Below the pieces are notes generated by a model that saw nothing but the letters and a program-made list of their open reading frames with translations, was not told the DNA's origin and did not search any database. From Sipunculus nudus (taxonomy: Eukaryota > Annelida > Sipuncula > Golfingiida > Sipunculidae): a DNA stretch of 64,000 nucleotides. Position numbers and translations under genes: made by a program. The stretch covers positions 44,779,695 to 44,843,694 of the forward strand of contig CM049316.1 in NCBI GenBank assembly GCA_026874595.1. The letters are read 5' to 3'. The first letter of the stretch is position 1; every line of letters starts with the position of its first letter. Below are positions 3,357 to 63,238 of the stretch, piece after piece.

Positions 3357-3434
3357 CTGGAAGAAGATACAGGTACAGGCAATCAGTCGGCTGGTTGCCA
3401 ACAGCAAGGTTTGAGCAGAACTGACGAGGCTGCC
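3357..3434. repeat. 78-bp block, copy 2 (also at 809-886)
   Basis: Near-identical to 809-886. The left flank here (AAGGTTCCTAC) and the right flank (TCAAGACATCG) differ from those of the first copy. Confidence 0.8.
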
Positions 3435-5010: not shown

Positions 5011-5045
5011 AAATGAACTTCTTTTGGTATTATTCTATCATATGA

Positions 5046-9962: not shown

Positions 9963-10639
9963 TTCCCCCAGTTTATTTCAAACAAAACATACAAAAATAT
10001 TCTTTTAAATCGTTATATTTGGAATTAATGTTGTCAATGCATGCCCTATATTTGCTCAATTGACTTAGTTATTGTAATTTACAATTCCGCTGCGCAACAG
10101 TTCGATTTCGGCGTACAAGCGTACTGAGTGCATGAGCATATGCAGCAGGTTTATTCTTGATAGTCATCTTGTGTGTGGCGGCCGAAAGCGTAAATTACAT
10201 TTTCGCCTCCATTTTAAAAGAATTTACCGTAAGTAACGGAAAAAAAGTCGATTTCGGGGGTTTCCATGATGGCTGCCAGGCAACCAAATGCATGGGATAC
10301 CGAACCGGTTTAAAATTCGATAGCACATCCTTTGTTTGATACCAATCTGCAGAAAAAACAATGACAAACGCTTTAACAGTTCTTAGAATAATTTATATGC
10401 GAAATTAAATCACTGCATTTCTGATGGCACTGAAATAAGATGGCAAACTTGCACCTGTAGGGGTTAAATTTCATATAAACTTTGGAGCAAAGGCTAAAAT
10501 GTGTCTTGTGAAAATGTGTCCCGAAGGAAAACCATGGAATATATTGAATTCTTAAGGGTCTTGGAAATCGATAGCACACATACTGAAACTTCAGAGCCAT
10601 GACCAGGACAGTTTCCGATATGCTTTCCCCTTAATATAA
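9963..10639. other. No recognised feature
   Basis: Moderately CpG-containing up to about 10260, otherwise AT-rich. Only chance ORFs are present. Confidence 0.5.
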
Positions 10640-13291
10640 ACAAGGGACCCATGGGTCACGGCGCTCAGCTGTTATATATGATAAAAAGATATGATTTGGG
10701 AATGAGGCACATGCTGGTTTTGTGTGGTAATAAATATAAGCTTTATTATGAGCTGTTGGTGTTTAGCTTATGTATGATTTTGATAGTATCTTTGGAGACA
10801 GGGAAGAGGATTGAGTTCATTTATTTTATTAACAAAGAGTTCAATTGTCACACAGATTTTGACTTGGCCATATAACTTATAAGCAGCACGTATAATAAAA
10901 GAGTTAAATTATTTATTAAAATTTAATAACAAATATTGTGCCAATATAATTTTTATTAAAAAATAATAAGAAAATCATGATTTTTTTAAATAAAATATAA
11001 CTGAAATGATTATTAAAATAATATTATAGAATATATTCATGAATGCATTCATGAATACATTTTGAAAGTATCTGCACTGGTATTCAAATACTTTCATTTT
11101 TACCTGAATTCCCATTCTTATGCAATAAAATTTTTTAATGCAGTACATATTCATATTCGTATTCAAATACATTTGCAAAGGATGCACACCATGTCTAGTA
11201 TTTATTCAGTTTAAGCCAAACAATGATGTTGAGAATTCAGAATATACAAAATTCACAAATTTAAATAATTATCATAAGTACCTGGTTTTATGGCTTTTAT
11301 TTATTTTAAAAAAAAAATAAATGTAATATATTCCTTTTGGACTGCTTTCACATCAATCTACACACTAGACACAGTAGGAATCTAGATTAATATTATCAAC
11401 TGCATCTTTGTCTATCATTAATTTCCTTCATGTGATCCCTAATGATTAGTAATGATATTATGATTTATTTTTTTATCAGTAAAATTTAACTGAAAATACC
11501 ATAGGTGACTGCATGGTGTTATTTCGAATAACATTGACATTGACATTCTATCCATCCATACAAGATTCTTACATCATCAGTAACTGCGTGTTAATTTTCT
11601 GTTACTCATCAACTAACAAATTCCTTTTCTATTAATTTTTCTTAAATTTGTTATTAAAAACCAATAAAAAATTATTAATTTATTGTTTATTGTTATGTTG
11701 TGTTTCAAAACAACTACTAGATGAGCTGTGTTGGACACCTGGATCAACTGTGGCTGGGCATTAGCTGCCTGGCTGCCCCAGTGTATGCCACGCATCAAGC
11801 GTGCATAATCTGATGAAAGGTCAACAAGGTCAACATACAGGTGACTGAAGAGGGGCTGGATTGAGCCTGGGTCTGACATGGTCCCATAAAAACATTAATA
11901 AAAGCTACAATATTTGGCCAATTTCTTTCAGCTTTCTAAACTACAAAGATGAAATCCTTATGTGTGCATGATATGAAAATTATATCAACAGTGCTCTCTG
12001 GAAAAAAACGTGCCATGGTCAAAGTTGGGCAAAATTTAAGGTACAAATTTTATATTTATACTGATAACTTATAAAATTTGAAAAATTCAGAACTAATTTT
12101 TGGTATTCATTTGAATCTTGATCAAATAATGTTACATCCCTGACAAAAAATCTCTAGCTTCAGCAATCCTCTTGTTAAGGGAGTAAATATATTTCTTGAT
12201 TTTTTAAAAAAGTGCATTATGTTTGGGCCCATAACTTAAAACAATTACGCAATACTGACATCATTTCTGGCATGTGCATAGCGAATGTATAGAAAAATAT
12301 GTATATTATATATGATCAAATCAGATCAGTGGTTTTGATATTAGGCAGTCTTACAGTGTAACAATGGGTTTTTAATGGAAAAATGAAGTTTTTCATCAAT
12401 ATCTCGAAGGAATTAAGTCCTAGTGATCAACTTCTTGGCATGGTAGGGGATTTTGGAGACATCTAACTGTATGCCAAATTTACGGAACTTAGAGCTGAAG
12501 CTGGGGAGCTGAGCTCTAGCAAACTGCATAACACTAGCTTGATGTAAACAATATGTGACATGGTGCTTGAAAACTTGAATATAATCTACAGTTTTTGATC
12601 AACTGGTTTCAAATTTTTGGTGTTAACAGTTGAAATGGTAACAAAAACTTGTTTTGAAAATTAAATCCTCAGCATTACAGGGAAAAAACGTGCCATGGTC
12701 AAACTTGGGCAAAATTTAAGGTACCAATTTTATATTTTTGCCAATATTTAAAAAAAAAATAACAGATTTTGATCTAATTTTTGGTATACAATTAAATTTT
12801 GATCAATTAAAGTTGTATTAATGAAAAAAAAGTCCTCTACCTTTAACAATTTGGTCTTAAGTGACCAAATATCTTTCCTGATTTTTTTTTACAAAGTCTA
12901 TTATGTTTGGGCCCATAACTTTTTTAAATTAAATAATACTGACTTAATTTCTAGAATGTACATAGGAACTATATAGAGGAATATTTATGGTAAATATGAA
13001 GAAAACCAGATGAGCGGTTTTGATATTAGGCAGTCCTGAAGTGTGAAAATAGATTTCTAATAAAAAATTGAGTTTTTTCCTTAAAATCTCAAAGGAACGA
13101 AGTCCTATTGACCCAATTTTCGGCATGGTAGGAGATTTTGGGGACATCTAGCTGTATACCGAATTTCAGATTCGTAGGTCCAATGGTGTCGAAACGTGCC
13201 AGCCTTACGGACGGACAGACAGACAGACGGACGAACGACGGACAATGGAGCACGACTATAGCTCAGATGACTTATAGTCAGCTGAGCTTAA
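10640..13291 (+). mobile_element. H1-family non-autonomous element, uninterrupted 2.65-kb copy
   Basis: The 5' end is CAAGGGACCCATGGGTCAC followed by GCTCAGCTG. The 3' end has GGAC/AGAC runs (about 13208-13243) and a hairpin at 13262-13286 with arms CTCAGATGAC and GTCAGCTGAG around a 5-base loop. The 5' GCTCAGCTG is the inverse of the hairpin's last arm. The interior holds two about 680-bp tandem units starting with ACGTGCCATGGTCAAA (about 12008 and 12688). It is co-linear with 46669-47285 plus 54220-56214, for which it supplies the empty site of the H3 insertion (about 11258-11275). There is no coding capacity. Layout matches HINE/pearl-type elements. Confidence 0.75.
13262..13286 (+). other. 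3' terminal hairpin of the H1 element
   Basis: Ten-base arms with one mismatch and a five-base loop (TTATA), directly followed by GAGCTTAAAA. The same hairpin recurs at 46639-46663, 56185-56209, 57864-57889 and, inverted, at 19905-19929, 20672-20696 and 37952-37976. Confidence 0.8.
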
Positions 13292-15339
13292 AAAAAAACT
13301 GATGCTTATTGGTCATGTTTGATTTTTAATGGGTATGACATCTGAGAGTATTAGGGGCTATTTTTGTGTAACGTATATGTATATGCGGCCCTGCCGGATA
13401 TTTTTAGCAGGGAATATAAATAGGATAGAATTTCAAGTTAACAAGTCATGATGGCGGGGGGGGGGGGCGGTCGACTGATTGCTGGACACAAGGGCGGACA
13501 GCGGGAACACTATATTTAGGAACGCACGGTTCCACCGTTACATGGGGCGATTCGGGTCAATTTAGGAGCAGTTAAGGATGTGTTGCAGGGCGGGCCGGTC
13601 GACTTCTCCATATTGCTGTACACCGACCTGTACATTAAAGGCGGCTTATACGTCGTCTGCACCAAGTTGTTGACTGGTTGACTATTCTGAAGAGAAGCAA
13701 AAAGTCATTACAGTTGCAAACACTGTCAGGTCTACAGGCAACCGTGACCACCATACTCTCAGCCCTCTGTTTTTTTAAGTCTCTTGTTCTTGGTATAAGG
13801 GGTTTACAACTCAGTGTTGTCTGATTGTATGAACACCCTTGATTCAAATAATGCATATTGGAGACGATTTTATTGTGTACTGTTCGGTTTGTGATAGGAC
13901 TGTTGATTATATGTTTGGTTCAGGGAGGCTATCGCTAAGTCGTGGTGAAAGAACGACCTTCTAGGAGTCAGATTTGACGTCACTGCAAACATACAGAGAT
14001 TAGCTGGGTATTTGGACGCGCTTTGGACCCTTTAGTTTACCCCCCCCCCCCCCCCCCCCACACACACACACCCCAAGCTGAAACCACGGTTGCAATTTCA
14101 ATAGTTTCAAAGCGTAGTGCCCTTATCTTCTGTGTATTATTTTCAGGTATGATGGACCAGTCCCTTCACACAAAATCCCCCTTTCTACTGGAAAACAAAA
14201 GATGGAAAACCAAGGTCTAGGAACCTTGCGAGAAATGCCATGTCCATATCCAGTTCATTTTATTTTTCGGTATTTTCAATGAAGAAATTATTTATTTTTG
14301 ATATACATTGGTAAGGGGCGCTTACATTTATTGTTGACGTAACTTTTTAACCATCTCTCCGGATATTCACGTGGAGGTGTTTAGCTTGTTTAGATTTTGA
14401 AATTTTGCTTTCGGACTGAAAACAAGCCTTTTTCAACTGTCCTTATATCTTAGAAAAACACTTTTAATTCTTTTAATATAGGGATAATATTATCGTTCAG
14501 TAATAATATATGAATTTTCTTTGATTTGTATGACTGCACAAATAAGCACTGCCGCATCATTTACAGCTGTTTATATCCGTTTAAATCCCAAGAAGGGAAC
14601 CTATAACGAACTTCTTAGACCGCGCTGGTGATGTAAAGATTAAACTATTGCATGGAAGGTGTAACTAATGAAATAATTACATGATATACCTATAGAATCG
14701 GTTGAGGGGACATGTGTTATCGATTACAAATGTGTGTAACAGCTTTCCATAAATATTTAATTTAAAATAATATTTGATGTACACATGCCAGAGATCGAAC
14801 TTCTTTTGACCTGCATGAAAGCAGCATACAGCCATAATAAAGAAACCACCAACCTAGAAAAGTTATTAAGAACTTGGTTACTCAAAAAAATGTGGATAAT
14901 ATCTAAATGAATAATCAGCAGAGTAATTTGAGTAAATCGTATGCATAACTAGGACACTCGAATCCCTTTTTGTAATGATGTCAAATACAACTGACATACA
15001 AAATCATATCTTATGACTGACACTGTATTTTAGGATAAATAAAAAAAAAGATTGCTTTGTTGGTAACTTGTGCTTACTTCTCATGTTCATCTCTATTTGA
15101 TCTCATAATAAAACTATTTATACAACAGAGTCTTTTTCTATCTATAAATCAGTTGAAAAAAAAAATAGTGATCAGATCACCTTATCTATGAAATCTCGGT
15201 TCCTCTTTACTTTTATATAGAATTCTTTATTTGACAAGTTAATAATTACGCTCTTTACACAGCGCTTTACCTATAGGGCTACTTCCTATATCGTAAGGCG
15301 CTGTTTGTTATGAACTCGTATCCTGCTTTGCAACACCAG
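13292..15339. other. Non-coding region; C-run followed by CA repeat
   Basis: No supportable gene. It contains G-runs at 13456-13467, a 20-base C-run at 14040-14059 followed by a short CA repeat, and AT-rich sequence to 15330. The short ORFs are low-complexity or chance. Confidence 0.5.
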
Positions 15340-24292: not shown

Positions 24293-24596
24293 GTAGAAGA
24301 CTGGATCGAAAATAGTGTCACAAAGGACGCCAACAAAGTGTACAACCATCGTCGACTAAAGATTTCCTCAAATTGATTCCATGGTTCTGACCTAGTCGAC
24401 AGGAACGTGAACAGAAGGTCATCAGGCCGTGAGGTCATCCCTCTTTGTAAAATAATTTAAAAAAGAAACATAGATTCAGCTACAACTACATAGACAGTAC
24501 CAAGGAAACCTTCTATATTGTTCCATGAGAAGCATGACTACCATCGAAAAGGACCTTGTTAAACCGATCAATTCTTCTATGAAGGAACTATTCAAA

Positions 24597-25679
24597 ATGG
24601 CGATCAGTACGAAGAGTCTGACAGCTGCTGACGTCACAACAGTGTCACATACAACTAACTACAATCAGAGCCTGACTGAGACATTCAATATCACCAAGCA
24701 AGACGATTTCTACGTTGAACTTGGAGAAAAAATTTATAAGCATTTCTCCATGGCGGCCGTTATATTTGGGTGCACTGGAAATATTTTCGCGGTGTTAGTT
24801 ATGCTGTACTCAAAGAAAACAAGATCCAGTGTCCCCGGACTGCTGTTAATCTGTTTAACACTGTCAGACACAGTGTATTTACTCACAACCTACTCACTGA
24901 CGTATGCTGCTAATACATTGGAATGTAGAATACTGTACTCTGTGAGTGGAACTGCAAGGTCGTTATCCGGGTTACTGCTGTTGTACATCAGCATCAGTCG
25001 GTATGTTGCAGTTGCCTTCCCATTGCGGTCCACGTGGATTTTGAAATATCGAAACACGGGTTCTCTGATTTTTCTCTTAATCATTCTCAGTCTTAGTGTA
25101 ATGGCACCAATATCCATTATCGTTGAATATATAGACAAACAGTGTGTCGTACCAACGAGGTACATCAACTTATACTTGTATTTTATCTTCATTGTAAACA
25201 CAGCGATTTTTGATTTTTTGATAAGTGGGATAATAACAGTTTTTTCAGTCCTGACCATAAGGGCTCTCAGTCGCTCGTCTCGCGGATTTGCAGATGAGGC
25301 AATATCCTCGACACAGCACAGCAGACGTAAAAGTGATGACAGACACGTGACACGATTTTTGCTTCTGATTGGTCTGTTTTATGTGGCGACCCACGCGCCG
25401 TATGGGATTGGTTACGTCATCTACGCCATCAATCCGTCAAACCTGACCTTTTTTACTGTGAGACTTATTAAATGTTGGAATTGGTTGGCTTATTCCGCGG
25501 ATGTGGTGTTGTATTGCGCAGGGAGCGCATCCTTTCGGAGCGAGGCCGTTCGGTTTGTTTCATGTGGGAGGCGTCCTACTAAAAGGAACAGCTCTTCGGC
25601 GAGTAGCAGGCGTACGGTGAGCAGAGACATGAGCAGCATCCGAGAACAAAGTGAGCAGCAGTTGAATACTCATATGTAA
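24597..25679 (+). CDS. Rhodopsin-class (class A) GPCR, paralogue 1
   Basis: Seven-helix receptor for an unknown ligand at the plasma membrane, in one uninterrupted frame. The ATG at 24597 (context TTCAAAATGG) is preferred because the paralogue's only possible ATG aligns with it; in-frame ATGs at 24525, 24534 and 24579 would add up to 24 unrelated residues. Counting from 24525: NQS at 47 and NIT at 55 are N-glycosylation sites in the N-terminus, and TM1 has GN at 85-86. TM2 has LTLSD (111-115). TM3 runs from Cys134 to SRY (158-160), which replaces DRY. Cys207 in loop 2 can pair with Cys134. TM6 has ATHAPY (288-293) in place of CWxP, and TM7 has DVVLY (326-330) in place of NPxxY. The cytoplasmic tail is Ser/Arg-rich. 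The family is unidentified, with a peptide-receptor-like layout. Confidence 0.9.
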   Translation: MAISTKSLTAADVTTVSHTTNYNQSLTETFNITKQDDFYVELGEKIYKHFSMAAVIFGCTGNIFAVLVMLYSKKTRSSVPGLLLICLTLSDTVYLLTTYSLTYAANTLECRILYSVSGTARSLSGLLLLYISISRYVAVAFPLRSTWILKYRNTGSLIFLLIILSLSVMAPISIIVEYIDKQCVVPTRYINLYLYFIFIVNTAIFDFLISGIITVFSVLTIRALSRSSRGFADEAISSTQHSRRKSDDRHVTRFLLLIGLFYVATHAPYGIGYVIYAINPSNLTFFTVRLIKCWNWLAYSADVVLYCAGSASFRSEAVRFVSCGRRPTKRNSSSASSRRTVSRDMSSIREQSEQQLNTHM

Positions 25680-39002: not shown

Positions 39003-39289
39003 GAAGAAGACGCAACAAACTGACTTGATCGAAAAACCAACATCGCATACGTCATCTAATGAAATTGTGTGGACAGTGATTTCCGTGGTTCACACCCTTG
39101 CGGAGGAAAAGTGAACCAAAGCTACTCGGACCTTGTCATAAGAAAGACCAGTCGAATTCTCTGTTCTATTATATTACATTAAAACATAAATATAAATGTA
39201 GCTACAAAGTCAAACATTGGAAAGATTTCCACAAAGGTTCATATACAGTGAAGTATTTTTTTCCATATAAGAAATACCAAAAATTCAAG
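39003..39289 (+). other. Probable 5' UTR exon segment of GPCR 2
   Basis: After a T-rich tract and AG at 39001-39002, the sequence GAAGAAGACG...TTGATCGAAAA matches the start of the corresponding segment before GPCR 1 (GTAGAAGACTGGATCGAAAA at 24293). The frame is open upstream of the ATG but contains none, so it is taken as UTR. Confidence 0.4.
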
Positions 39290-40357
39290 ATGAGTCTGGT
39301 AGCTGATGAAGTCACAATAGTGTCCAACACCACAAACTACAATCAGAGCTTAGCAGAGGCACACAACGGCACCAAGCAGAACTATTTTTACTTTGAACTT
39401 GGAATGAATATATATAAGCATTTCTCAATAGCGGCCGTTATCTTTGGGTGTACTGGAAATATTTTCGCTGTGCTAGTTATGCTCTACTCAAAGAAAACAA
39501 GGTCAAGTGTCCCTGGACTGCTTATAATATTTTTAACACTATCAGACACGCTTTATTTAATCACAGTCTACTCGCTGACATTCGCTACTGATTTTATTGA
39601 GTGCAGGATACTGAACATTTTTACTGGAGCTTCTAGTTTATTATCCGGGTTACTGGTGTTATACATCTGCATTAGCCGGTACATCGTCGTTGCTTTCCCA
39701 CTGCGTTCCAGGTGGATTTTGAAATATCGAAATACTGTTTTTATGATTCTTCTCTTTATCTTTCTCAGTCTCGGCATAATGGCGCCTATATCAAGCATCG
39801 TTGAATATAGAGGGAAAATGTGTGTCGTACCAGACATGTATATAAATGTATACTTGTATTTTATCATCACTGTGAACACCGCAATTTTGGACTTTTTGAT
39901 AAGTGGGATAATTACAGTTTTTTCTGTCCTGACTATCAGGGCTCTCAATCGCTCCTCACGGGGATTTGCAATCGAGGCTATGTCTTCGACACAACACAGC
40001 AGACGAAAAAGCGAAGACAGGCACGTGACACGGTTTTTGCTTCTGATTGGTCTGTTTTATGTGGCTACTCACGTGCCCTATGGGATTGGTTACGTTGTCT
40101 ACGCCACCAACCAGTCATACTTGATATCTTTTATCATGATCATCACTAAATGTTGGTACATGTTGGCCTACTCGGCGGACTTAGTGTTGTACTGCGCCGG
40201 GAGCGGCTCCTTTCGGAGCAAAGCTCTTCGATTTATCACGTGTTGGATGCGATGCACTAAAAAGAACAGCACTGGGAAAAGTAGCGGGCAGGCTGTGAGC
40301 AGACACATGAGCAGCGTTCCCGAACAAAGTGAGCAGCATTTGAATACTCATATGTAA
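39290..40357 (+). CDS. Rhodopsin-class (class A) GPCR, paralogue 2
   Basis: 355 residues from the first in-frame ATG (39290). It is strongly similar to the receptor at 24597-25679 over its whole length, including the identical end EQSEQ-x-LNTHM. Residues counted from this Met: NTT, NQS and NGT sites in the first 30; GN of TM1 at 56-57; LTLSD of TM2 at 82-86. Cys105 (TM3) pairs with the Cys in MCVVP at 178. SRY (129-131) replaces DRY, ATHVPY (TM6) stands in for CWxP, and DLVLY (TM7) replaces NPxxY. The third loop contains SRRKSEDRHVTR, nearly the same as in paralogue 1, suggesting the same G-protein coupling. The ligand is unknown. The CDS is intronless. The pair most likely arose by local duplication followed by insertion of repeats between the copies. 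Confidence 0.92.
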   Translation: MSLVADEVTIVSNTTNYNQSLAEAHNGTKQNYFYFELGMNIYKHFSIAAVIFGCTGNIFAVLVMLYSKKTRSSVPGLLIIFLTLSDTLYLITVYSLTFATDFIECRILNIFTGASSLLSGLLVLYICISRYIVVAFPLRSRWILKYRNTVFMILLFIFLSLGIMAPISSIVEYRGKMCVVPDMYINVYLYFIITVNTAILDFLISGIITVFSVLTIRALNRSSRGFAIEAMSSTQHSRRKSEDRHVTRFLLLIGLFYVATHVPYGIGYVVYATNQSYLISFIMIITKCWYMLAYSADLVLYCAGSGSFRSKALRFITCWMRCTKKNSTGKSSGQAVSRHMSSVPEQSEQHLNTHM

Positions 40358-45090: not shown

Positions 45091-46668
45091 ACAAGGGACC
45101 AATGGGTCACATCGCTCAGCTGAATTTTGAAAAATATTAATAACTGCAAAATATTTTTATTTCTTTTGGTTTTTCATGTATATTATCATTAGAAAAGCTA
45201 TGAGAAAATGGCCCTGCTAAAATGAAACTCTGTAAATTATAGAAAAATGGACATAAGCTAAACCATTTAGTGATGCACCAAGGGAACAAATAGGCCTACG
45301 GTAAGTGTTATATAAAAGTAACATTTCATAAACAAATAATGTGTGAAGGTTATTAAGTTTTCAAACTTTAATATATGGCCATATGAGTTAAAAATTAATC
45401 CAACAAAGTTTGACCAATATTCCTAATTTTAAAACTAAGTTAACAGTGTTATTCACACCTAGGCCCTGCCAACTTTAAGAGATATGAATGAAATGCTATA
45501 AAGTATTTATATCTTCTTAAATCTTGTCAGTTAGCACTTACATTAGATCCTAATATTTTATCACATTTGAATATTAGGATTAAATTCCTGATTTTTTTTC
45601 TTTAAAACAATCAAAATTGTCCAAGTCTCATCAAAAAGAATTTATTTAACATTAAAATTATAAGATTCATCTTGTTTATTAGTCCTGTGTATTGAAGGGG
45701 TGGGTGGTGGGAGGGGTATCCGTTGTTACTGCTCGTTGCTGAAAAAAATGTTAATTTTAAGATTCATCTAGTTCATAGTACAGGTCTGTCAACAGAATGG
45801 GGGTGGGGTTGGGGGGGGGGGGGGAGCGGGGGTTGCCAGAGAAAAAGGCTCCCTGTGGTATGGTATTAACTACAGACAGCCTGATCAAGCTCAACTCAGT
45901 GGAGAGAGCTGCACTGAATGACCTACAGTCACCAAAGTGGACTGCTTGACAATGTAAGGGAATACAACAAGAGCCTCCAAAAAAATTCAATAACTAGCCT
46001 AATTTTGCAGCTTTTATTTTCAAATTTCAGATTTAAACAGATAAAATCAGAAAAAAACGTGCCGTGGCCAAAGTTGGTCAAAATTTAAGGTACCAATTTA
46101 TATTTTTGCCAATATTTAAAAATATTTAACAGATTTTGATCTAATTTTTGGTATACAATTAAATTTTGATTAATTAAAGTTGTATTACTGAAAAAATGTC
46201 CCTACCTTTAACACTTTTGGTCTCAAGTGACCAAATATCTTTCCTGATTTTTTTTACAAAGTCTATTATGTTTGGGCCCATAACTTTTTTTAAATTAAAT
46301 AATACTGACTTAATTTCTGGCATGTACATAGGAACTATACCGAGGAATATTTATGGTAAATATGAAGAAAACCAGATGAGTGGTTTTGATATTAGGCAGT
46401 CCTGAAGTGTGAAAATAGATTTCTAATAAAAATTGAGGTTTTTCCTTAATATCTCGAAGGAACGAAGTCCTATTGACCCAATTTTCGGCATGGTAGGAGA
46501 TTTTGGGGACATCTAACTGTATGCCGAATTTCAGATTCGTAGGTCTAATGGTGTCGAAACGTGCCAGTCTTACGGACGGACATCCGGACTGACGGACAGA
46601 CAGACGGACGGATGACGGACAATTGACCACGACTATAGCTCAGATGACTTATAGTCAGCTGAGCTAAA
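45091..46668 (+). mobile_element. H1-family element, 1.6 kb, with both ends
   Basis: 5' end ACAAGGGACCAATGGGTCAC then GCTCAGCTGA. The 3' end has a GGAC/AGAC run (46572-46618) and a hairpin (46639-46663) followed by GAGCTAAAA. Its last about 615 bp (from 46053) match the second 680-bp unit of the 10640-13291 copy closely. G-runs lie at 45811-45824. No gene. Confidence 0.7.
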
Positions 46669-47285
46669 ACAAGGGACCCATGGGTCACATCGCTCAGCTG
46701 TTATATATGATAAAAAAATATGATTTAGAAATGAGGCACATGCTTGTTTTGTGTGGAAATAAATAGAAGCTGTATTATGAGTTGAGGGTGTTTAGCTTAT
46801 GTATGATTTTGATAGTATCTTTGGAGACAGGGAAGAGGATTGATTTATTTTATTAACAAATGGGGTGCTATTGTCACACAGATTTTGACTTGGCCATATA
46901 ACTTATAAGCAGAACATATTATATAAGAGTTTAACTATTTATTAAAAATAATTACATATTGTCCCAAATATAATTTTTATTAAAAATAATGAGAATCGTA
47001 TGATTTTTAAAATAAAATACAACTGAAATGATTATTAAATAATATCAAAGAATATATTCATGAATACATTCATGAGTACATTTTGAAAGTATTTGCACAG
47101 GTATTCATATACTTTCATTTTTACCTGAATTCCCATACTTATGCAAGAAATTTTATGATGGAGTACATATTCATATTCGTATTCAAATACATTTGCAAAG
47201 TATTCGCACCATGTCTGGTATTTATTCAGTTTTCACCAAACAATGATGTTGAGAATCCAGAATATACAAAATTCACACATTTAAA
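46669..47285 (+). mobile_element. H1-family element, left part, split by the H3 insertion
   Basis: It starts directly at the end of the preceding element (CAAGGGACCCATGGGTCACATCGCTCAGCTG). It is co-linear with 10640-11265 up to CACA(C/A)ATTTAAA, where H3 begins. The continuation is at 54220. Confidence 0.8.
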
Positions 47286-49194
47286 CTAGACATTTCTTGG
47301 CACCGCAGGTACCAGAGTATCCCCAGACATAGTAGGCCCCCCTCCTACAAGAACAGACCCCCATTTTTAGCAGCATATACTGACACTTGGCATATCTATT
47401 GTTTATTCCATCTAAAGATCCACAATCTTGTTGAAGATGTTGGTCCTGTGACCTTGATCTTTTTAAAGATGTGTCCTGTGACCTTGACCTTTGATCTCAT
47501 AACCCCAAAATCAATTTGGGTCTTGCTTTTCCAATGGGACATATGCAAGTCAAGATTGAAATCTATACATCAATAAAGCAGGAATTATCATCCAGAAACT
47601 TATTTTTGGACAGATGGCTCCTGTGACCTTCACCTTTGACCTTGTGACCTCAAAATTGATAGTGTTCATCCTCTTGGCAGGAGAACTATTTGTGCAAGAT
47701 GAAAGATATGAGATGAAATGTTTGGCTGAAAATGCACCCACCTCTTTTTAAGATGTGTCCTGTGACCTTGACCTTTGACCTCATGACCCCAAAATCAATT
47801 TTGGTCTTACTTTTCCAATGGGACATATACAAGTCAAGTTTGAAATCCATACATCAATAAAAGCAGGAATTATCATCCAGAAACTAATTTTTGGACATAT
47901 GGCTCCTGTGACCTTCATCTTTGACCTTGTGACCTCAAAATTGATAGGGGTCTTCCACTCTTGGCAGGTGAACTATATGTGCAAGAGGAAAGATCTGAGA
48001 TGAATTGTTTGGCTGAAAATGCATCCACAATCTTTTTAAAGAGGTTTCCTGTGACCTTGACCTTTTTGACCTCATGACCCTAAAATCAATTTGGGTCTTG
48101 CTTTTCTAATGGGTCAATAACAAAGCCAAGTTTGAAATCCATACATCAGTAAAAGATGGAATTATCATCCAGAAACTAATTTTTGGACAGATGGCTCCTG
48201 TGACCTTCACCTTTGACCTTGTGACCTCAAAACTGATAGGGTTCTTCCTCTCTTGGCAGGTGAACTATATGTGCAAGATGAAAGACCTGAGATGAAATGT
48301 TTGGCTAAAAATGCATCCACCTCTTTTTAAAGATGTGACCTTGACCTTTGACCACATGACCCCAAAATCAATTTGGGTCTTGCTTTTCCAATGGGACATA
48401 TATAAGTCAAGTTTGAAATCCATACATCAATAAAAGCAGGAATTATCATCCAGAAACTAATTTTTGGACATATGGCTCCTGTGACCTTCACCTTTGACCT
48501 TGTGACCTCAAAATTGATAGGGGTCTTCCACTCTTGGCAGGTGAACTATATGTGCAAAATGAAAGATCTGAGATGAATTGTATGGCTGAAAATGCATCCA
48601 CAATCTTTTTAAAGATGTGTCCTGTGACCTTGACCTTTGACCTCATGACCCGAAATTCAATTCCGGTTTTGCATTTCCAATGGGTCAAATACATGTATAG
48701 TTTGAAATCCATACATCAATAAAAGAAGGAATTATCATCCAGAAACTAATTTTTGGACAGATGGCTCCTGTGACCTTCACCTTTGACCTTGTGACCTCAA
48801 AATTGATAGGGGTCTTCCTCTATTGGCAGATGACTTATATGTGCAAGATGAAAGGTCTGAGATGAAATGTTTGGCTGAAAATGCATCCACCTCTTTTTAA
48901 AGATGTGACCTTGACCTTTGACCTCATGACCCCAAAGTCAATTTGGGTCTTGCTTTTCCAATGGGACATATATAAGTCAAGTTTGAAATCCATACATCAA
49001 TAAAAGCAGGAATTATCATCCAGAAACTAATTTTTGGACATATGGCTCCTGTGACCTTCACCTTTGACCTTGTGACCTCAAAATTGATAGGGGTCTTTTA
49101 CTCTTGGCAGGTGAACTATATGTGCAAGATGAAAGATCTGAGATGAATCGTTTGGCTGAAAATGCATCCACAATCTTTTTATAGAGGTTTCCTG

Positions 49195-49221
49195 TGACCT
49201 TGACCTTTGACCTCATGACCC
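49195..49221 (-). promoter_or_regulatory. Nuclear-receptor-type half-site cluster (example from one satellite monomer)
   Basis: Four half-sites in a row: TGACCT 49195-49200, TGACCT 49201-49206, TGACCT 49208-49213 and TGACCC 49216-49221, with spacers of 0, 1 and 2 bases. Read on the minus strand this includes a perfect DR1 (AGGTCAAAGGTCA) and a TCAAGGTCA extended half-site. The same pattern is in every monomer. Binding is inferred from consensus only. Confidence 0.5.
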
Positions 49222-49340
49222 CAAATTCAATTCCGGTCTTGCTTTTCCAATGGGTCAAATACAAGTCAAGTTTGAAATCCAAACATCAATAAAAGAAGGA
49301 ATTATCATCCAGAAACTAATTTTTGGACAGATGGCTCCTG

Positions 49341-49367
49341 TGACCTTCACCTTTGACCTTGTGACCT
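49341..49367 (-). promoter_or_regulatory. Half-site cluster of the second half-monomer, with perfect DR2
   Basis: TGACCT, TCACCT, TGACCT and TGACCT with the same 0-1-2 spacing as the block 146 bp before it. The last two form a perfect DR2 (AGGTCACAAGGTCA on the minus strand). Confidence 0.5.
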
Positions 49368-50374
49368 CAAAATTGATAGGGTTCTTCCTCTCTTGGCAGG
49401 TGAACTATATGTGCAAAATGAAAGATCTGAGATGAAATGTTTGGCTGAAAATGCATCCACATCTTTTTAAAGATGTGTCCTGTGACCTTGACCTTTGACC
49501 TCATGACCCCAAAATCAATTTGGGTCTTGCTTTTCCAATGGGACATATATAAGTCAAGTTTGAAATCCATACATCAATAAAAGCAGGAATTATCATCCAG
49601 AAACTAATTTTTGGATATATGGCTCCTGTGACCTTCACCATTGACCTTGTGACCTCAAAATTGATAGGGGTCTTCCACTCTTGGCAGGTGAACTATATGT
49701 GCAAAATGAAAAATCTGAGATGAATTGTATGGCTGAAAATGCATCCACAATCTTTTTAAAGATGTGTCCTGTGACCTTGACCTTAGACCTCATGACCCGA
49801 AATTCAATTCCGGCTTTGCATTTCCAATGGGTCAAATACATGTATAGTTTGAAATCCATACATCAATAAAAGAAGGAATTATCATCCAGAAACTAATTTT
49901 TGGACAGATGGCTCCTGTGACCTTCACCTTTGACCTTGTGACCTCAAAATTGATAGGGGTCATCCTCTATTGGCAGATGACTTATATGTGCAAGATGAAA
50001 GGTCTGAGATGAAATGTTTGGCTGAAAATGCATCCACATCTTTTTAAAGATGTGTCCTGTGACCTTGACCTTTGACCTCATGACCCCAAAATCAATTTGG
50101 GTCTTGCTTTTCCTATGGGACATATATAAGTCAAGTTTGAAATCCATACATCAATAAAAGCAGGAATTATCATCCAGAAACTAATTTTTGGACATATGGC
50201 TCCTGTGACCTTCACCTTTGACCTTGTGACCTCAAAATTGATAGGGGTCTTCCACTCTTGGCAGGTGAACTATATGTGCAAGATGAAAGATCTGAGATGA
50301 ATTGTTTGGCTGAAAATGCATCCACAATCTTTTTAAAGAGATTTCCTGTGACCTTGACCTTTGACCTCATGACC

Positions 50375-53244
50375 CCAAAATCAATTTGGGTCTTGCTTTT
50401 CCAATGGGACATATGCAAGTCAAGATTGAAATCTATACATCAATAAAGCAGGAATTATCATCCAGAAACTTATTTTTGGACAGATGGCTCCTGTGACCTT
50501 CACCTTTGACCTTGTGACCTCAAAATTGATAGTGTTCATCCTCTTGGCAGGAGAACTATTTGTGCAAGATGAAAGATATGAGATGAAATGTTTGGCTGAA
50601 AATGCACCCACCTCTTTTTAAGATGTGTCCTGTGACCTTGACCTTTGACCTCATGACCCCAAAATCAATTTTGGTCTTACTTTTCCAATGGGACATATAC
50701 AAGTCAAGTTTGAAATCCATACATCAATAAAAGCAGGAATTATCATCCAGAAACTAATTTTTGGACATATGGCTCCTGTGACCTTCATCTTTGACCTTGT
50801 GACCTCAAAATTGATAGGGGTCTTCCACTCTTGGCAGGTGAACTATATGTGCAAGAGGAAAGATCTGAGATGAATTGTTTGGCTGAAAATGCATCCACAA
50901 TCTTTTTAAAGAGGTTTCCTGTGACCTTGACCTTTTTGACCTCATGACCCTAAAATCAATTTGGGTCTTGCTTTTCTAATGGGTCAATAACAAAGCCAAG
51001 TTTGAAATCCATACATCAGTAAAAGATGGAATTATCATCCAGAAACTAATTTTTGGACAGATGGCTCCTGTGACCTTCACCTTTGACCTTGTGACCTCAA
51101 AACTGATAGGGTTCTTCCTCTCTTGGCAGGTGAACTATATGTGCAAGATGAAAGACCTGAGATGAAATGTTTGGCTAAAAATGCATCCACCTCTTTTTAA
51201 AGATGTGACCTTGACCTTTGACCACATGACCCCAAAATCAATTTGGGTCTTGCTTTTCCAATGGGACATATATAAGTCAAGTTTGAAATCCATACATCAA
51301 TAAAAGCAGGAATTATCATCCAGAAACTAATTTTTGGACATATGGCTCCTGTGACCTTCACCTTTGACCTTGTGACCTCAAAATTGATAGGGGTCTTCCA
51401 CTCTTGGCAGGTGAACTATATGTGCAAAATGAAAGATCTGAGATGAATTGTATGGCTGAAAATGCATCCACAATCTTTTTAAAGATGTGTCCTGTGACCT
51501 TGACCTTTGACCTCATGACCCGAAATTCAATTCCGGTTTTGCATTTCCAATGGGTCAAATACATGTATAGTTTGAAATCCATACATCAATAAAAGAAGGA
51601 ATTATCATCCAGAAACTAATTTTTGGACAGATGGCTCCTGTGACCTTCACCTTTGACCTTGTGACCTCAAAATTGATAGGGGTCTTCCTCTATTGGCAGA
51701 TGACTTATATGTGCAAGATGAAAGGTCTGAGATGAAATGTTTGGCTGAAAATGCATCCACCTCTTTTTAAAGATGTGACCTTGACCTTTGACCTCATGAC
51801 CCCAAAGTCAATTTGGGTCTTGCTTTTCCAATGGGACATATATAAGTCAAGTTTGAAATCCATACATCAATAAAAGCAGGAATTATCATCCAGAAACTAA
51901 TTTTTGGACATATGGCTCCTGTGACCTTCACCTTTGACCTTGTGACCTCAAAATTGATAGGGGTCTTTTACTCTTGGCAGGTGAACTATATGTGCAAGAT
52001 GAAAGATCTGAGATGAATCGTTTGGCTGAAAATGCATCCACAATCTTTTTATAGAGGTTTCCTGTGACCTTGACCTTTGACCTCATGACCCCAAATTCAA
52101 TTCCGGTCTTGCTTTTCCAATGGGTCAAATACAAGTCAAGTTTGAAATCCAAACATCAATAAAAGAAGGAATTATCATCCAGAAACTAATTTTTGGACAG
52201 ATGGCTCCTGTGACCTTCACCTTTGACCTTGTGACCTCAAAATTGATAGGGTTCTTCCTCTCTTGGCAGGTGAACTATATGTGCAAAATGAAAGATCTGA
52301 GATGAAATGTTTGGCTGAAAATGCATCCACATCTTTTTAAAGATGTGTCCTGTGACCTTGACCTTTGACCTCATGACCCCAAAATCAATTTGGGTCTTGC
52401 TTTTCCAATGGGACATATATAAGTCAAGTTTGAAATCCATACATCAATAAAAGCAGGAATTATCATCCAGAAACTAATTTTTGGATATATGGCTCCTGTG
52501 ACCTTCACCATTGACCTTGTGACCTCAAAATTGATAGGGGTCTTCCACTCTTGGCAGGTGAACTATATGTGCAAAATGAAAAATCTGAGATGAATTGTAT
52601 GGCTGAAAATGCATCCACAATCTTTTTAAAGATGTGTCCTGTGACCTTGACCTTAGACCTCATGACCCGAAATTCAATTCCGGCTTTGCATTTCCAATGG
52701 GTCAAATACATGTATAGTTTGAAATCCATACATCAATAAAAGAAGGAATTATCATCCAGAAACTAATTTTTGGACAGATGGCTCCTGTGACCTTCACCTT
52801 TGACCTTGTGACCTCAAAATTGATAGGGGTCATCCTCTATTGGCAGATGACTTATATGTGCAAGATGAAAGGTCTGAGATGAAATGTTTGGCTGAAAATG
52901 CATCCACATCTTTTTAAAGATGTGTCCTGTGACCTTGACCTTTGACCTCATGACCCCAAAATCAATTTGGGTCTTGCTTTTCCTATGGGACATATATAAG
53001 TCAAGTTTGAAATCCATACATCAATAAAAGCAGGAATTATCATCCAGAAACTAATTTTTGGACATATGGCTCCTGTGACCTTCACCTTTGACCTTGTGAC
53101 CTCAAAATTGATAGGGGTCTTCCACTCTTGGCAGGTGAACTATATGTGCAAGATGAAAGATCTGAGATGAATTGTTTGGCTGAAAATGCATCCACAATCT
53201 TTTTAAAGAGATTTCCTGTGACCTTGACCTTTGACCTCATGACC
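50375..53244 (+). repeat. 2870-bp higher-order block, copy 2
   Basis: Essentially base-for-base the same as the preceding block as far as I could compare. After about 53265 it departs from what would be a third copy (TTTTTCAATGGGACATATATAAG instead of TTTTCCAATGGGACATATGCAAG) and runs into diverged edge monomers. Confidence 0.85.
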
Positions 53245-53560
53245 CCAAAATCAATTTGGGTCTTGCTTTTTCAATGGGACATATATAAGTCAATTTTGAA
53301 ATCATTACATCAATAAAAGCAGGAATTATCATCCAGAAACTAATTTTTGGACAGATAGCTCCTGTGGCCTTGACCTTTGACCTTGTGACCCCAAAATTTA
53401 TATGGATCATCCATTATTGGCAAGTGAGCTATATATTCAAGATGGAAGACCTGGGATGAAAGTTTGGCTTAAAATGCATCCACAGTATCTTTTAAAATGC
53501 CAGTCCAGTGACCTTGACCTTTGACCTCATGACCCTAGAACCTATAGGGTTCTTACTTTA

Positions 53561-54125
53561 GTGGTGGGCCATACATAAGTCATGTTTGAAATCCATATGG
53601 CTATCAACACTGGAGATATCATAAGAGGTGTGTGATTTTCACCATATATGGCAATATTCAAGGTCAAGGCCACTATCATAGTAAAGGTCATGACCCCAAT
53701 TTAAATAAGCATCATCCCATAACCCATACCTATGTATATGCATAATATAAAAGAAATCTGTCCATTAGTTTTTGACTTATAATGCTCACAGTGCTGTAAG
53801 GTGGCAATTTAGGGGGTATTAAACGGCACGAAAACAAGTAAAGAATAATAGGTGGCGCCACCAGTTTCTGGAACATGACAACCCTATCCATGATCTTCCA
53901 TCAACTTGATTTTGGGATAAATCCATGCAAGATTTCTTGAGATATTAAAGAATTTGTGTGATTTTCCCCAAAATTGGACCTATTCAAGGTCAAGGACACT
54001 CTCCTAGTAAAGGTCATGACCTCATTTTAAATAGGCGTCGTCCTCTTACCCATATCTATACATATACCAAGTTTGGTAAAGTTCCGTGAAATATTTTTTG
54101 GGTTATCGCGCCAACAAGATTCATA
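53561..54125 (+). repeat. Two about 327-bp units shared with the H3 element at 61 kb
   Basis: Each unit has ATTCAAGGTCAAGG-CACT, AAAGGTCATGACC, CCCATA(A)CCCATA-CTATG and CGGCACGAAAACAAG (landmarks at 53655 and 53982). The second includes AGGTCATGACCT at 54011-54022. Confidence 0.75.
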
Positions 54126-54128
54126 TGC

Positions 54129-54162
<34 letters not shown>

Positions 54163-54172
54163 GCGGCGGCGG
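54126..54172. repeat. (CGG)n trinucleotide repeat
   Basis: About 15 CGG/GGC triplets with one AAC interruption, directly before the H3 terminal hairpin. The 61-kb member has only a short CGG/CAG version, so the run has expanded or shrunk since they separated. Confidence 0.95.
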
Positions 54173-54190
54173 GACCGGTATGAAAACATA

Positions 54191-54217
54191 GTATCCCCCG
54201 ACTTTGTCTGGGGATAC
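54191..54217 (+). other. 3' terminal hairpin of the H3 element
   Basis: Outer arms GTATCCCC and GGGGATAC, a C/T mismatch, inner arms GAC and GTC, loop TTT. The identical hairpin is at 62596-62622. Confidence 0.9.
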
Positions 54218-54219
54218 AA

Positions 54220-56214
54220 TAATGATCATAAGTACCTGGTTTTATGGCTTTTATTCATATTAAAAAAATTAAATGTAATATATTCATTTTGGAGTAATTT
54301 CACATCAATGTACACACTAGACAGCAGGAATCTAGATTAATATTATCAACTGCATCTTTTTCTATCATTAATTTCCTTCATATGATCCCTAATGATTAGT
54401 AATGGATAATATGATTTATTTTTTTATCATTAAAATTGAACTGAAAAATACCATAGGTGAATGCATGGTGTTATTTGGAATACGTGACATTCTATCAATC
54501 GATACAAGATTCTTATATCATCAGTACCGGCAAGTTAATTTCCTGTTATTATCAACAAACAAATTTCTTGTTATTAAAAACCAATAAAAAATTTATTAAT
54601 TTATTGTTTATTGTTATGTTGTTAGTTAAAAGTACTAGATGAGTTGGGTTGGACACCTGGATCAACTGTGGCTGGCCATAAGCTGCCTGGCTGCCCCAGT
54701 GCATGTCTTGTGTCAAGCGTGCATAATTTGATGAAAGGTCAACAAGGTCAACATACAGGTGACTCAAGATCTAGAGGGGCTTGGGAGAGCTAAGGTCTGA
54801 CATGGTCTCATAAAAACATTAATAAAAGCTACAATTTTTGGCCAATTTCTTTCAGCTTTCTAAACTAAAAAGCTGAAATCCTTATGTGTGCATGATATGA
54901 AAATTATACCAACAGTGCTCACAGGAAACAAACGTGCCATGGTCAAATTTTGGCAAAATTTAGGGTACTAATTTTTATATTTATACTAATAACTTATAAA
55001 ATTTGAATAATTCAGAACTAATTTTGGGTATTCAATTGAATCTTGATAAAATAATGTTACATCCCTGACAAAAAATCTCTAGCTTCAGCAATCCTCTTGT
55101 TTAGGGAGTAAATATATTTCTTGATTTTTTACAAAGTGCATTATGTTTGGGCCTATAACTTAAAACAATTACACAATACTGACATCATTTCTGGCATGTG
55201 CATAGAGAATGTATAGAAAAATATGTTATATTATATATGATTAAAGTCAGATCAGTGGTTTTGATATTAAGCAGTCTTGAAGTGTAACAATGGGTTTTTA
55301 ATGGAAAAAAAAGAAGTTTTTCATTAATATCTCAAAGCTTTAAGTCCTAGTGACCAAATTCTTGGCATGGTAGGGGATTTAGGAGACATCTAATTGTATG
55401 GCAGATTTTAGGAACTGAGAGGTGAAGCTGGGGAGCTGAGCTCTTGCAAACTGCATGACACTAGCTTGATGTAAAAAATGTTACATGGTGTTTGAAAACT
55501 TGAATAAAATCTACAGTTTTTGATCAACTGGTTTCAAATTTTTGGTGTTAACAGACAAAATGCTAACAAAAACAAGCTGTGAAAATTAAATCCACAGTAC
55601 TTACAGGAAAAAAACGTGCCATGGTCAAAGTAAGGCAAAATTTAAGGTACCAATTTTTTATTTTTGTTATTATTTCAAAAAATTTAAAATATTTTGATCT
55701 AATTTTGGGTATACAATTTAATTTTGATAAATTAAAGTTATATTACTGGAAAAAAGTCCATAGCTTTAACATGTCTTGTGTTAAGTGATCAAATATCTTT
55801 CCTGATTTTTTACAAAATGCATTATGTTTGGGCCCATAACTTTTTAAAATTATATAATACAGACATAATTTCTGGCATGTACATAAAAACTATATAGGGA
55901 AATATTTATGGTAAATATGAGGAAAACAGATGAGTAGTTTTGATATTAGGCAGTCCTGAAGTGTGAAAATAGGTTTTTAATAAAAAATTGAGGTTTTTCC
56001 TTAATTTCTCAAAGGAACGAAGTCGCAAAGACCCAGTTTTCGGCTTGGTAGGAGATCTTGGGGACATCTAACATTATGCCGAATTTTGGATTCCTAGGTC
56101 TTACGGTTTCAAAACGTGCCACAGACGGACCGACGGACGGTCGGACAGACGGACGGACGACGGACAATGGACCACGACTATAGTTCAGATGACTTATTGT
56201 CAGCTGAGCTAAAA
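54220..56214 (+). mobile_element. H1-family element, right part (after the H3 insertion)
   Basis: It resumes at TAATGATCATAAGTACCTGG, matching 11266 onward. It has the two about 680-bp units (ACGTGCCATGGTCAAA at about 54932 and 55614), the GGAC run (56121-56160) and the terminal hairpin (56185-56209). Together with 46669-47285 it makes a 2.6-kb element equal to the 10640 copy. Confidence 0.8.
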
Positions 56215-56342
56215 ATGTTAGCCAAATTAAATATTTGGTGACGCTAGCTCCTGCCCTTTTTGAGACAGCTATGACCCAAGACGCACGACAGACGACGCCA
56301 CACCATCGCAAAAGCTCACAGATTCGCTAAAAATGCAAACCA
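56215..56342 (+). mobile_element. H2-family 3' end fragment
   Basis: GACGCACGACAGACGACGCC, then ACACCATCGCAAAAGCTCACAG, then ATTCGCTAAAA is the same 3' end as at 58318-58388 and, inverted, 31963-32040. The 5' part is missing. Confidence 0.5.
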
Positions 56343-56669: not shown

Positions 56670-57896
56670 AACAAGTGACCCATGGGTCATGACGCTCAGC
56701 TGACTGGGAAGAGATTCGCAAAAAGGAAATTTTATCATCTGAAAGGTAGTATATTCCCATTCAAACTGAAGCATTAAACAGATTAAGCAGGCCAAAATTG
56801 TGTCTGTATTTATATACCTCAAAAATAGAGAAAAAATGCATAAACTTAAAAAAAATACAGGTGGCGCAACCAGTCTGCAGAAACTGATGAAACATCTCAT
56901 GATCAATATGTATGCCAAAAATCATGACCATCAGTGATGTAGTTAATGAGATATTGAAGTTTTTGTATGAAATTTTTTACTATTCTGGGGGGTACTTTGG
57001 GGCCCCATAGCTCAAAGGATATGAGTAACAAAGACCTAATTTCTGGTTTCCATGGAGACTTTTCATAGGACTCTCAATGTGTCAAGAATGAAGATTCTAG
57101 GTCCAATCTATATGATTTGTGCCCTGTTAACAGATGTTCACATTTTTAAAGGTCTCAAAAATAGAGAAAACAATTCGTAAAAAATCGAAAATTACAGGTG
57201 GCGCCACCAGTCTGCAGAAACTGATGAAACATCTCATGATCAGTATGTATGCCAAAAATCATGACCATCAGTGATGTAGTTAATGAAATATTGAAGTTTT
57301 TGTATGAAATTTTTTACTATTCTGGGGGGTACTTTGGGGCCCCATAGCTCAAAGGATATGGGTAACAGAGACCTAATTTCTGGTTTTCATGGAGACTTTT
57401 CATAGGACTCTCACTGTGTCAAGAATGAAGATTCTAGGTCCAGTCTATACAATTTGTGCCCTGTTAACAGATGTTCACATTTTTTAAGGTCTCAAAAATA
57501 GAGAAAAAAAATTTGTAAAAAATCGAAAAATACAGGTGGCGCCACCAGTCTGCAGGAACTGATGGAACATCTCATGATTAATATGTATGCCAAAAACCAT
57601 GACCATCAGTGATGTAGTTAATGAGATATTGAAGTTTTTGTATGAAATTTTTTACTATTCTGGGGGGTACTTTGGGGCCCCATAGCTCAAAGGATATGGG
57701 TAACAGAGACCTAATTTCTGGTTTCCATGGAGACTTTTCATAGGTCTCTCACTGTGTCAAGAATGAAGATTCTAGGTCCAGCGGTTACGATTTGTGCCTA
57801 GTTAACGGACAGACGGACAGACAGACGGACAGACGGACGACGGACAAAGAGTGATCACTATAGCTCAGCATGACTGAAAGTCAGCTGAGCTAAAAA
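56670..57896 (+). mobile_element. H1-family element with three 337-bp tandem units, both ends present
   Basis: 5' end ACAAGTGACCCATGGGTCATG then ACGCTCAGCTGACTGG. The units begin at the GGTGGCGC(C/A)ACC motif (56860, 57197 and 57535) and are nearly identical, each with CATCTCATGATCA(A/G)TATG, TATTCTGGGGGGTACTTTGG and TTCTAGGTCCA. The 3' end has a GACGGACAGACA run (57804-57845) and a hairpin (57864-57889). It is the youngest-looking H1 copy in the window. Confidence 0.8.
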
Positions 57897-60931: not shown

Positions 60932-63238
60932 CTGAAATATATAAGGAAAAGGCATTATAATTATTCATGTAAGGGAATTAAACGTGGTACCACACATAAA
61001 AACTAGATATTTTTTGGCACCGCAGGTGCCATAGTATCCCCAGACAATTAATCCCCCCCCCCTTTAAGAATAGGCCCCCATCTTCAGCAACAATTAATAT
61101 CAGACCACACTGATAGAAAAGGTCACTCTCATAGAAAAGGTCATGACCCAAATTTCAATATACATCATCCCCTAACCCATGTCTATGTATATGCATAACA
61201 TAAAAGAAATCTGTCCATTAGTTTTTGACTTAAAATGGTCACAGTACTGTTAAGTGGCAATGATGGGGTATTTAACGGCACAAAAACAAAAGAATAACAG
61301 GTGGCGCTACCAGTTTCCGGTACATGACAATAATATCCAAGATCTTTGATCAAGTTGATTTTTGGACCAATCCATGCATCCCTTATTGAGATATTAATGA
61401 TTTTGTGTAATTTTCACCATATATGGCAATATTCAAGGTCAAGGCCACTCTAATAGGAAAGGTCATGACCCCAATTTATATATACATCATCCCATAACCC
61501 ATGTCTATGTATATGCATAATATGAAAGAAATCTGTCTGATAGTTTTTGACTTATAATGCTCACAGTACTGTTAAGTGGCAATGATGGGGGTATTAAACG
61601 GCAGGAAAACAAGTAAAAGAATAACAGGTGACGCCACCTGTTTCCATAACATGACATTACTATCCAAGATCTTCAGTCAAGATGATTTTTGGACCAATCC
61701 ATGCATCCCTTATTGAGATATTAATGATTTTGTGTAATTTTCACCATATATGGCAATATTCAAGGTCAAGGCCACTCTAATAGGAAAGGTCATGACCCCA
61801 ATTTATATATACATCATCCCATAACCCATGTCTATGTATATGCATAATATGAAAGAAATCTGTCTGATAGTTTTTGACTTATAATGCTCACAGTACTGTT
61901 AAGTGGCAATGATGGTGGTATTAAACGGCAGGAAAACAAGTAAAAGAATAACAGGTGACGCCACCTGTTTCCATAACATGACATTACTATCCAAGATCTT
62001 CAGTCAAGATGATTTTTGGACCAATCCATGCATCCCTTATTGAGATATTAATGATTTTGTGTTATTTTCATCATATATGGCAATATTCAAGGTCAAGGCC
62101 ACTCTCATAGGAAAGGTCATGACCACAATTTAAAAAAATAACATCCCATAACCCATATCTATGTATATGCATAATATAAAAGAAATCTGTCCATTAGTTT
62201 TTGACTTATAATGCTCACAGTACTGTCAAGTGGCAATTTTGGGGGTATTAAACGGCACGAAAACAAGTAAAGAATAATAGGTGGCGCCACCAGTTTCAGG
62301 AACATGACAACCCTATCCATGATCTTCGATCAACTTGATTTTGGGATCAATCAATGCAAGATTTCTTGAGATATTTAAGAATTTGTGTGATTTTCCCCAA
62401 AATTGGACCTATTCAAGGTCAAGGACACTCTCCTAGTGAAGGTCATGACCTCATTTTAAATAGGCATCGTCCTCTCACCCATATCTATACATATACCAAG
62501 TTTGGTAAAGATCCGTGAAATATTTTTGGAGTTATCGAGCCAACAAGATTTATATGCAGCGGCGGCAGCGGCAGCGGGACCGGTATGAAAACATAGTATC
62601 CCCCGACTTTGTCTGGGGATACATATTATACACTAGTATAAGGTATATCATAATTCAGATTCCAGACCCATTTTCTTCTTCATTTATTAGAAATAAACCA
62701 AAGTACTCTTATGGTATTGTTTCCTAAAAGTAAATATTTTTATCCCAAATAATAAGCCAATCAAACACCATTAAACATTGTTTCTGATCAATGGCATTCA
62801 CAATTACATGCCTCAAACTAATTCTTTCATTACTACTATTGTACTACTACTACACCAATGTGATGAATGTATATATGACACCATTCTTAATACAGATTTG
62901 TACCACTTTATGCACATACAGGTAAGTATTTTTCATTAGGTATTAAGAAATATTTTATTTTTTAAGTTTTCCTTTTTTGATTTCATACAATGTTATAAGC
63001 TATTTTTAGAGTCAACCAAACAGTCTATGATAATTATAATAATATAAAAGGAAAAAAGTACTGGTATGAGAATAATGTAACATATTTTTGAATAAACAAT
63101 AATACATATTTTAGAGTCCTTGAAAATGCACTGCTGAAAGATCCATCTAAGCCTAACAAGGTTTCAATCGAATTAAATTGATAAAAAAAAAATCCATAAT
63201 ATGTGACTTGTAGAATCATAAACACTCCAACAACCTAC
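60932..63238 (-). other. 2.3-kb intron containing an H3 element
   Basis: From donor GTAGG (63238-63234) to acceptor CAG (60934-60932). Most of its right-centre is the 1.62-kb H3 element at 61003-62622. The remaining 62623-63238 is AT-rich and unassigned. Confidence 0.65.
61003..62622 (+). mobile_element. H3-family element, 1.6 kb, intronic
   Basis: Same ends as the 47286-54217 element: CTAGATATTTTTTGGCACC, GTATCCCCAGACA (61034-61046) and the identical terminal hairpin (62596-62622). The core is four to five about 327-bp units (landmark ATTCAAGGTC at 61431, 61758, 62085 and 62411) and no 287-bp satellite. AGGTCATGACCT occurs at 62440-62451. A short CGG/CAG run precedes the hairpin. It lies antisense to the host gene's intron. 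Confidence 0.75.

Follow-up and report, generated by a model that had tools for sequence, protein, structure and literature searches.

A ten-monomer repeat block within a HINE-type element of Sipunculus nudus most likely reflects one recent duplication

We analysed a 64,000-nucleotide stretch of the Sipunculus nudus genome (GCA_026874595.1, contig CM049316.1, positions 44,779,695 to 44,843,694; hereafter the window), in which a 289-bp tandem repeat array lies within a HINE-like mobile element. Tandem Repeats Finder (TRF) placed the array at 47457-53597, with a period of 289 and 21.4 copies, and a profile built from the window's own units cut it into 21 full monomers of 281-290 bp each (47479-53508) and partial ones, one of them 114 bp long. 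The typical monomer is 288-289 bp, the value of 287 bp being the block average. Autocorrelation over 47450-53560 gave a top lag of 2870 (0.941), followed by lags of 3447 (0.575), 577 (0.547), 3159 (0.528) and 289 (0.515). At lag 2870 we observed a single unbroken identical run of 2899 bp (47502-50400, 0 mismatches), and two 2870-bp blocks of ten monomers, at 47502-50371 and 50372-53241, are identical to each other. Monomer types a to j occur in sequence twice and are followed by one diverged type, z (53219-53508), which has 80-87% identity to the other monomers; within a block, monomers are 86-99% identical. Monomers ten positions apart were identical except for the pair of type a (99.3%); the pair formed by the first j and z also differs, but these two are not counterparts. 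The mean identity at a lag of ten monomers was 0.984, a value reached by none of 20,000 permutations (mean 0.910, maximum 0.956). In a monomer tree, every one of the ten types paired with its twin, nine pairs being identical and the a pair having support of 100/99. The original prediction had described three levels of order, and all three were found, as halves of 135-149 bp, monomers of 281-290 bp and ten-mers of 2870 bp; the repeated ten-monomer block and its non-random order were both borne out, with exactly two blocks in the window (n = 2).

The array forms part of an insertion on the minus strand, at 47286-54217 (6932 bp). The flanking sequences (46667-47285, 89% identity; 54218-56215, 88% identity) correspond to a repeat that runs uninterrupted at 10638-13294, and 47286-54217 is therefore an insertion into another repeat. 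With both ends found and an element-free site in this paralogous repeat, the earlier proposal that the array sits within a single mobile element is upheld. Read on the minus strand, the element begins with a 13-bp subterminal inverted repeat (subTIR), GTATCCCCAGACA, at its very terminus (54205-54217), which together with its own inverted repeat forms a hairpin at 54191-54217; in the fold analysis this hairpin had a free energy of -12.4 kcal/mol (z -3.76), and 0 of 200 shuffles were as stable. A GCG/GCC microsatellite detected by TRF (54127-54172) adjoins this 5' end, so that the 5' inverted repeat and microsatellite typical of HINEs are both present. Next comes a second repeat of about 327 bp, present in about 1.6 units (53610-54148; internal match of 53610-53733 with 53936-54059 at 80%), and then the 289-bp array. 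The 3' end comprises the inverse subTIR, TGTCTGGGGATAC (47317-47329), which is complementary to the opposite end and lies 31 bp from the terminus; a palindrome (7-bp stem, 3-nt loop) located 12 bp away from the terminus (47298-47314); and the terminus itself (47286-47297), which ends in CTAG and reads AAGAAATGTCTAG on the minus strand when the preceding base is included. The longest frame between stops in the element is 96 codons. The second repeat is common to a sister element at 61003-62622, where 62058-62577 matches 53629-54148 at 94% over 520 bp; in this sister, whose ends are the same, the place of the 289-bp array is taken by 4.2 units of the 327-bp repeat.

We interpret the element as a young non-coding HINE-type element, that is, a non-autonomous Helentron of the rolling-circle class, lying on the minus strand and carrying two consecutive arrays. 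Its inverted subTIRs agree with those of HINEs, which are about 12-15 bp long and are placed at the 5' end and some tens of bp from the 3' end. Canonical Helitrons begin with TC at the 5' end, end in CTRR after a hairpin about 11 nt upstream and insert between A and T. The 3' CTAG and the palindrome 12 bp upstream fit that description, but the 5' end reads GTATC (or TGTATC or TTGTATC) rather than TC, and we rejected this class. A cut-and-paste transposon with terminal inverted repeats, or a miniature inverted-repeat transposable element, was also rejected, as one inverted repeat lies 31 bp inside the end and the duplicable target is at most 2 bp (AA). So was a Helentron on the plus strand, since only the minus strand places the microsatellite and hairpin at the 5' end, as in Cg_HINE of the Pacific oyster. 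A Pfam search of six frames in the window matched a zinc knuckle, an endonuclease, a reverse transcriptase and a pair of 7tm_1 receptors, none of them inside the element; an Rfam scan of the window gave 0 matches, as did an exact scan of viral contigs for a 19-base end.

The genome searched for other copies comprises 1.43 Gb, with 17 contigs of 61-111 Mb and the next four below 0.1 Mb. We scored 40 of 4257 first-look candidates, and 38 other loci were distinguishable among the matches listed; the 20 best-scoring of these were fetched and compared. Both element ends were present in all 20, and element length ranged from 3406 to 5777 bp, as against 6932 bp in the window. Across 24 insertions (21 loci and three outer copies), AA adjoined the element on both flanks in every case (TT on the minus strand), position +3 was T in 23 and position +5 was A in 24, giving a target resembling AA^TNA. 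AA occurs once in the empty site of the paralogue at 11264; it also occurs once in the empty site within the split monomer of L017, which is less clean, with a one-base gap. A Rep-helicase of a Helentron or Helitron encoded elsewhere in the genome would supply mobility. We found 143 matches to Helitron_like_N in the same genome among 150 candidates scored of 195, including, among the matches listed, at least seven frames of over 2200 codons.

We then typed the monomers of the window and the 20 copies, naming each after its nearest window type (identity mostly 97-100%, lower in L017, in the outer copy of L019 and in the z of L024, at 93%). In 13 of the 20 the array was a single a-b-c-d-e-f-g-h-i-j-z (L009-L016, L018, the inner copy of L019, L020, L027 and L028). 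Six others showed different rearrangements, involving one to four monomers: abcde-hij-hi-z (L021), abcdefg-defghij-z (L022), abcde-hij-hij-hij-z (L023), abcdefgh-z (L024), abcde-de-hij-hij-hij-z (L025) and abcdef-hij-z (L026). The twentieth, L017, which is not among the single-array copies, is a nested pair in which a young copy is split by an older one with a five-monomer repeat in its array. Exact block doublings were present in L022 (lag 1140, run of 1259 bp) and L025 (lag 570, 688 bp), and in L023 the run at lag 866, of 733 bp, falls short of its period. The single-array copies are closely similar: no difference separates L009 from L013 over 3444 bp, though they lie on different contigs, and nine further copies have 1-12 differences from L009. 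These differences are mostly confined to one copy, with one change common to L012 and L020. When reduced to its one-block form, the window copy had 1-13 mismatches to 11 single-array copies over 3444 bp.

Nesting was seen in three of the 20 fetched loci (in the scripts' orientation, L017 at 3002-7060, L019 at 1287-5348 and L028 at 1287-5323), its frequency perhaps being inflated by the choice of best-scoring loci. The nested copies sit within the array of another copy or a relative, and those of L017 and L019 lie at the same monomer position, CATCAA^TAAAAG.

The window array is thus the common a-j-z array with a-j doubled. When we carried out an exchange between a and z in L009 in silico, the window's 6314 bp were rebuilt with two mismatches, and this held at 30 adjacent crossover points. 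The crossover tract that this indicates, 50372-50400, is about 29 bp identical in a and z and cannot be placed more finely. The two mismatches represent a single private T-to-C substitution, present once per block (49814 in block 1, with its twin at 52684); none of the 12 other copies compared carries it. The exact z/a block junction occurs once in the genome, in the window, and three further places match it with one or two mismatches; one of these, L052, is an older six-monomer copy with no long repeat (longest run 94 bp). We therefore favour, with considerable confidence, a doubling of a-j by one unequal exchange in a young HINE-type element, for which no centromere role is needed. In such an exchange, two strands misaligned by ten monomers would have recombined between the first monomer of one and the eleventh of the other, within the tract identical in a and z; replication slippage or a template switch could have had the same outcome, and sequence alone does not separate the three. 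The ten-mer is accordingly best described as one recent block duplication, most likely due to unequal exchange or slippage. Because the private substitution is present in both blocks and other copies carry substitutions of their own, a doubling after landing is the simplest account. The proposed order would be landing, private substitution and doubling, and the doubling probably took place after this copy had landed at its present site.

Several observations weigh against this interpretation. The 3' palindrome folds poorly (-3.9 kcal/mol, z -0.82; 44 of 200 shuffles fold equally well), and the 3' subTIR is separated from the end by 31 bp, as against about 38-60 bp in mite HINEs according to the part of that description considered here (PMC4067079). 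HINEs insert at TT and leave no target-site duplication; the AA/TT on both sides here fits either a 2-bp duplication or element sequence. A search for an autonomous partner bearing these ends was negative in 14 pieces near Rep domains (eight 5-kb pieces lying downstream of long Rep frames, and six short Rep loci), where the sole match was the palindrome word with two mismatches. The compared copies, as the best-scoring loci, are no random sample, and L052 alone of the three near-match junction sites was examined. Finally, an assembly error that doubled a block would leave identical blocks with the substitution in both.

A wider reading is that the element is a generator of higher-order satellite, repeatedly doubling blocks of two, three, four or ten monomers by way of its rolling-circle replication or its ordered array while its copies spread the rearrangements; landing sites of the CATCAA^TAAAAG kind in each monomer would permit nesting and longer arrays, and perhaps the start of a satellite. 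We regard this as possible but doubtful. It is unlikely, in our view, that the doubling took place during rolling-circle transposition, through a strand that slipped back ten monomers, so that the copy inserted already doubled. Rearranged arrays are inherited through transposition, as the e-to-h junction common to L021, L023 and L025 indicates, and replication of the Helitron class is held to promote such changes, as stated in the portion of a previous account used here (PMC8268682). However, the private substitution in both blocks makes a doubling after landing probable, unless the source copy already bore that substitution, and each of the other copies has its own substitutions relative to L009, as changes after landing would produce.

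False duplication of the second block by the assembly is the main remaining doubt about the doubling, although we consider it quite improbable. The blocks are perfectly identical and are seen in the window copy alone, which is what such an error would produce, but a single-block array is just 3.4 kb, which is short for long-read assembly, and other copies hold different exact doublings with junctions of their own. Least probable by far is a true centromere-like higher-order satellite, in which amplification and homogenisation would act on the ten-mer as their unit and the element would have caught a piece of a longer array: the two mismatch-free blocks, in which monomers differ by up to about 14%, suit that idea, but the unit occurs twice in the window rather than many times, its junction is found just once in the genome, a-j occurs once in most other copies and is otherwise rearranged in six and nested in one pair, and element ends bound the array in 20 of 20 fetched copies (stand-alone long arrays were not directly searched for).

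The array also has order below the level of the block. Each of the 21 monomers splits into halves of 135-149 bp with a mean half-to-half identity of 63%, and for one monomer the halves aligned with a score of 37.5, compared with shuffles of mean -1.0, standard deviation 5.2 and maximum 16 (n = 500). Most of the resemblance falls within the first 45 nt or so; beyond this 45-nt box, the same monomer scored 10.5, a value exceeded by the best of 500 shuffles (14). Averaged over block 1 (ten monomers), the score beyond the box was 8.85, compared with rotated controls of mean -3.7, standard deviation 4.0 and maximum 11 (n = 150). The halves are thus probably homologous over their full length, though weakly so outside the box; the original claim of two alignable halves stands strongly within the box and is marginal beyond it.

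Two further levels, which the original prediction lacked, are an alternation at 577 bp and a weaker period of about 1150 bp. Neighbouring types alternate within the block, identity at lag 2 exceeding that at lag 1 by 0.046, and the 577-bp level was present in both the window and L009 (83 and 157 of 20,000 permutations, respectively, were as extreme). Mean identity was 97.0% within the set b, d, f, h and j, 90.2% within the set a, c, e, g and i, and 89.2% between the sets. The longer period reflects the similarity of d to h (99%) and of e to i (96%), with an autocorrelation lag of 1147. The levels at 144, 288, 577 and about 1150 bp may represent older rounds of the same process acting on smaller blocks, and the family may have inherited these lower levels in part through transposition.

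In centromeric alpha-satellite higher-order repeats, monomers diverge within a unit and the units are near-identical. The array described here differs in having only two units, at one locus, with transposon ends as its bounds; the likeness to centromeric satellites that had been drawn earlier is not supported, the ten-monomer period being most likely one doubling in one copy. Nor is an array inside a mobile element the surprise it had been taken for: in the parts of the published account drawn on here, tandem repeat arrays are the usual centre of Cg_HINE of the Pacific oyster (PMC7492417). On the same partial basis, Cg_HINE resembles the present element in its 5' subTIR, complementary inverted repeat, microsatellite, central array (sometimes two) and 3' subTIR, as well as in dispersed copies and variable monomer number, and probably also in its palindrome and TT insertion (PMC7492417). 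By contrast, its monomers average 138-181 bp and most of its arrays contain few of them, whereas here a 289-bp composite occurs 11-21 times per array, and the order of monomer types, conserved across copies here, is not described for Cg_HINE in those parts (PMC7492417). The DINE-1/HINE elements of Drosophila, mites and Culex, as far as the excerpted description extends, have in common with ours the subTIRs, the inverted repeat at the 5' end, a T-rich target and the lack of coding capacity, probably the 3' stem-loop and, in some copies, a microsatellite and central repeats, a likeness of plan (PMC4067079). By description, again taken from part of the source, the bivalve elements pearl, DTC84 and MgE are likewise modular and non-coding, with short central arrays of repeats of about 160 bp (PMC7492417).

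We found no account of higher-order organization in a HINE in the open-access literature searched, which is no proof of absence. The element adds to the HINE type a member with ordered monomer types; the element class and its plan are already known, and no new kind of system is shown. By the time higher-order repeats are usually encountered, many rounds of amplification have wiped out the traces of how they started. Here, many young, near-identical copies with known ends record the ancestral monomer order together with several independent first doublings. Breakpoints can be placed to within tens of bases, and the window copy probably also preserves the order of events, substitution and then doubling. 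Across the copies of one genome it thereby becomes possible to measure how often unequal exchange occurs in short arrays and how large its blocks are, and the window copy is useful as a record of how higher-order structure begins.

We also noted that TGACCT occurs 123 times on the plus strand of the array (47457-53597) and AGGTCA does not occur, compared with a mean of 5.7 and a maximum of 11 for the two words combined in 50 shuffles. Arrays of 311-bp and 327-bp units are also rich in TGACCT, and several other arrays lack it. Pairs of AGGTCA one base apart resemble nuclear-receptor sites. A palindromic word with an overhang, AGGTGGCGCCACCAG, occurs at 53850-53864 and in 56818-57806 and is common to the repeat units of 327 bp and 337 bp, between which the self-comparison of the window reported no other likeness. 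The repeat that hosts the insertion (10638-13294; 46050-47285 and 54218-56215) has tandem units of roughly 680 bp and an end reading CAGCTGAGCTAAAA, and L023 landed directly behind this same end word. Elsewhere in the window, three frames at 3844-8003 (zinc knuckle, endonuclease and reverse transcriptase) represent a retrotransposon without long terminal repeats that is split over frames, and 24525-25679 and 39098-40357 hold related rhodopsin-type receptor genes with 80% DNA identity over 1144 bp.

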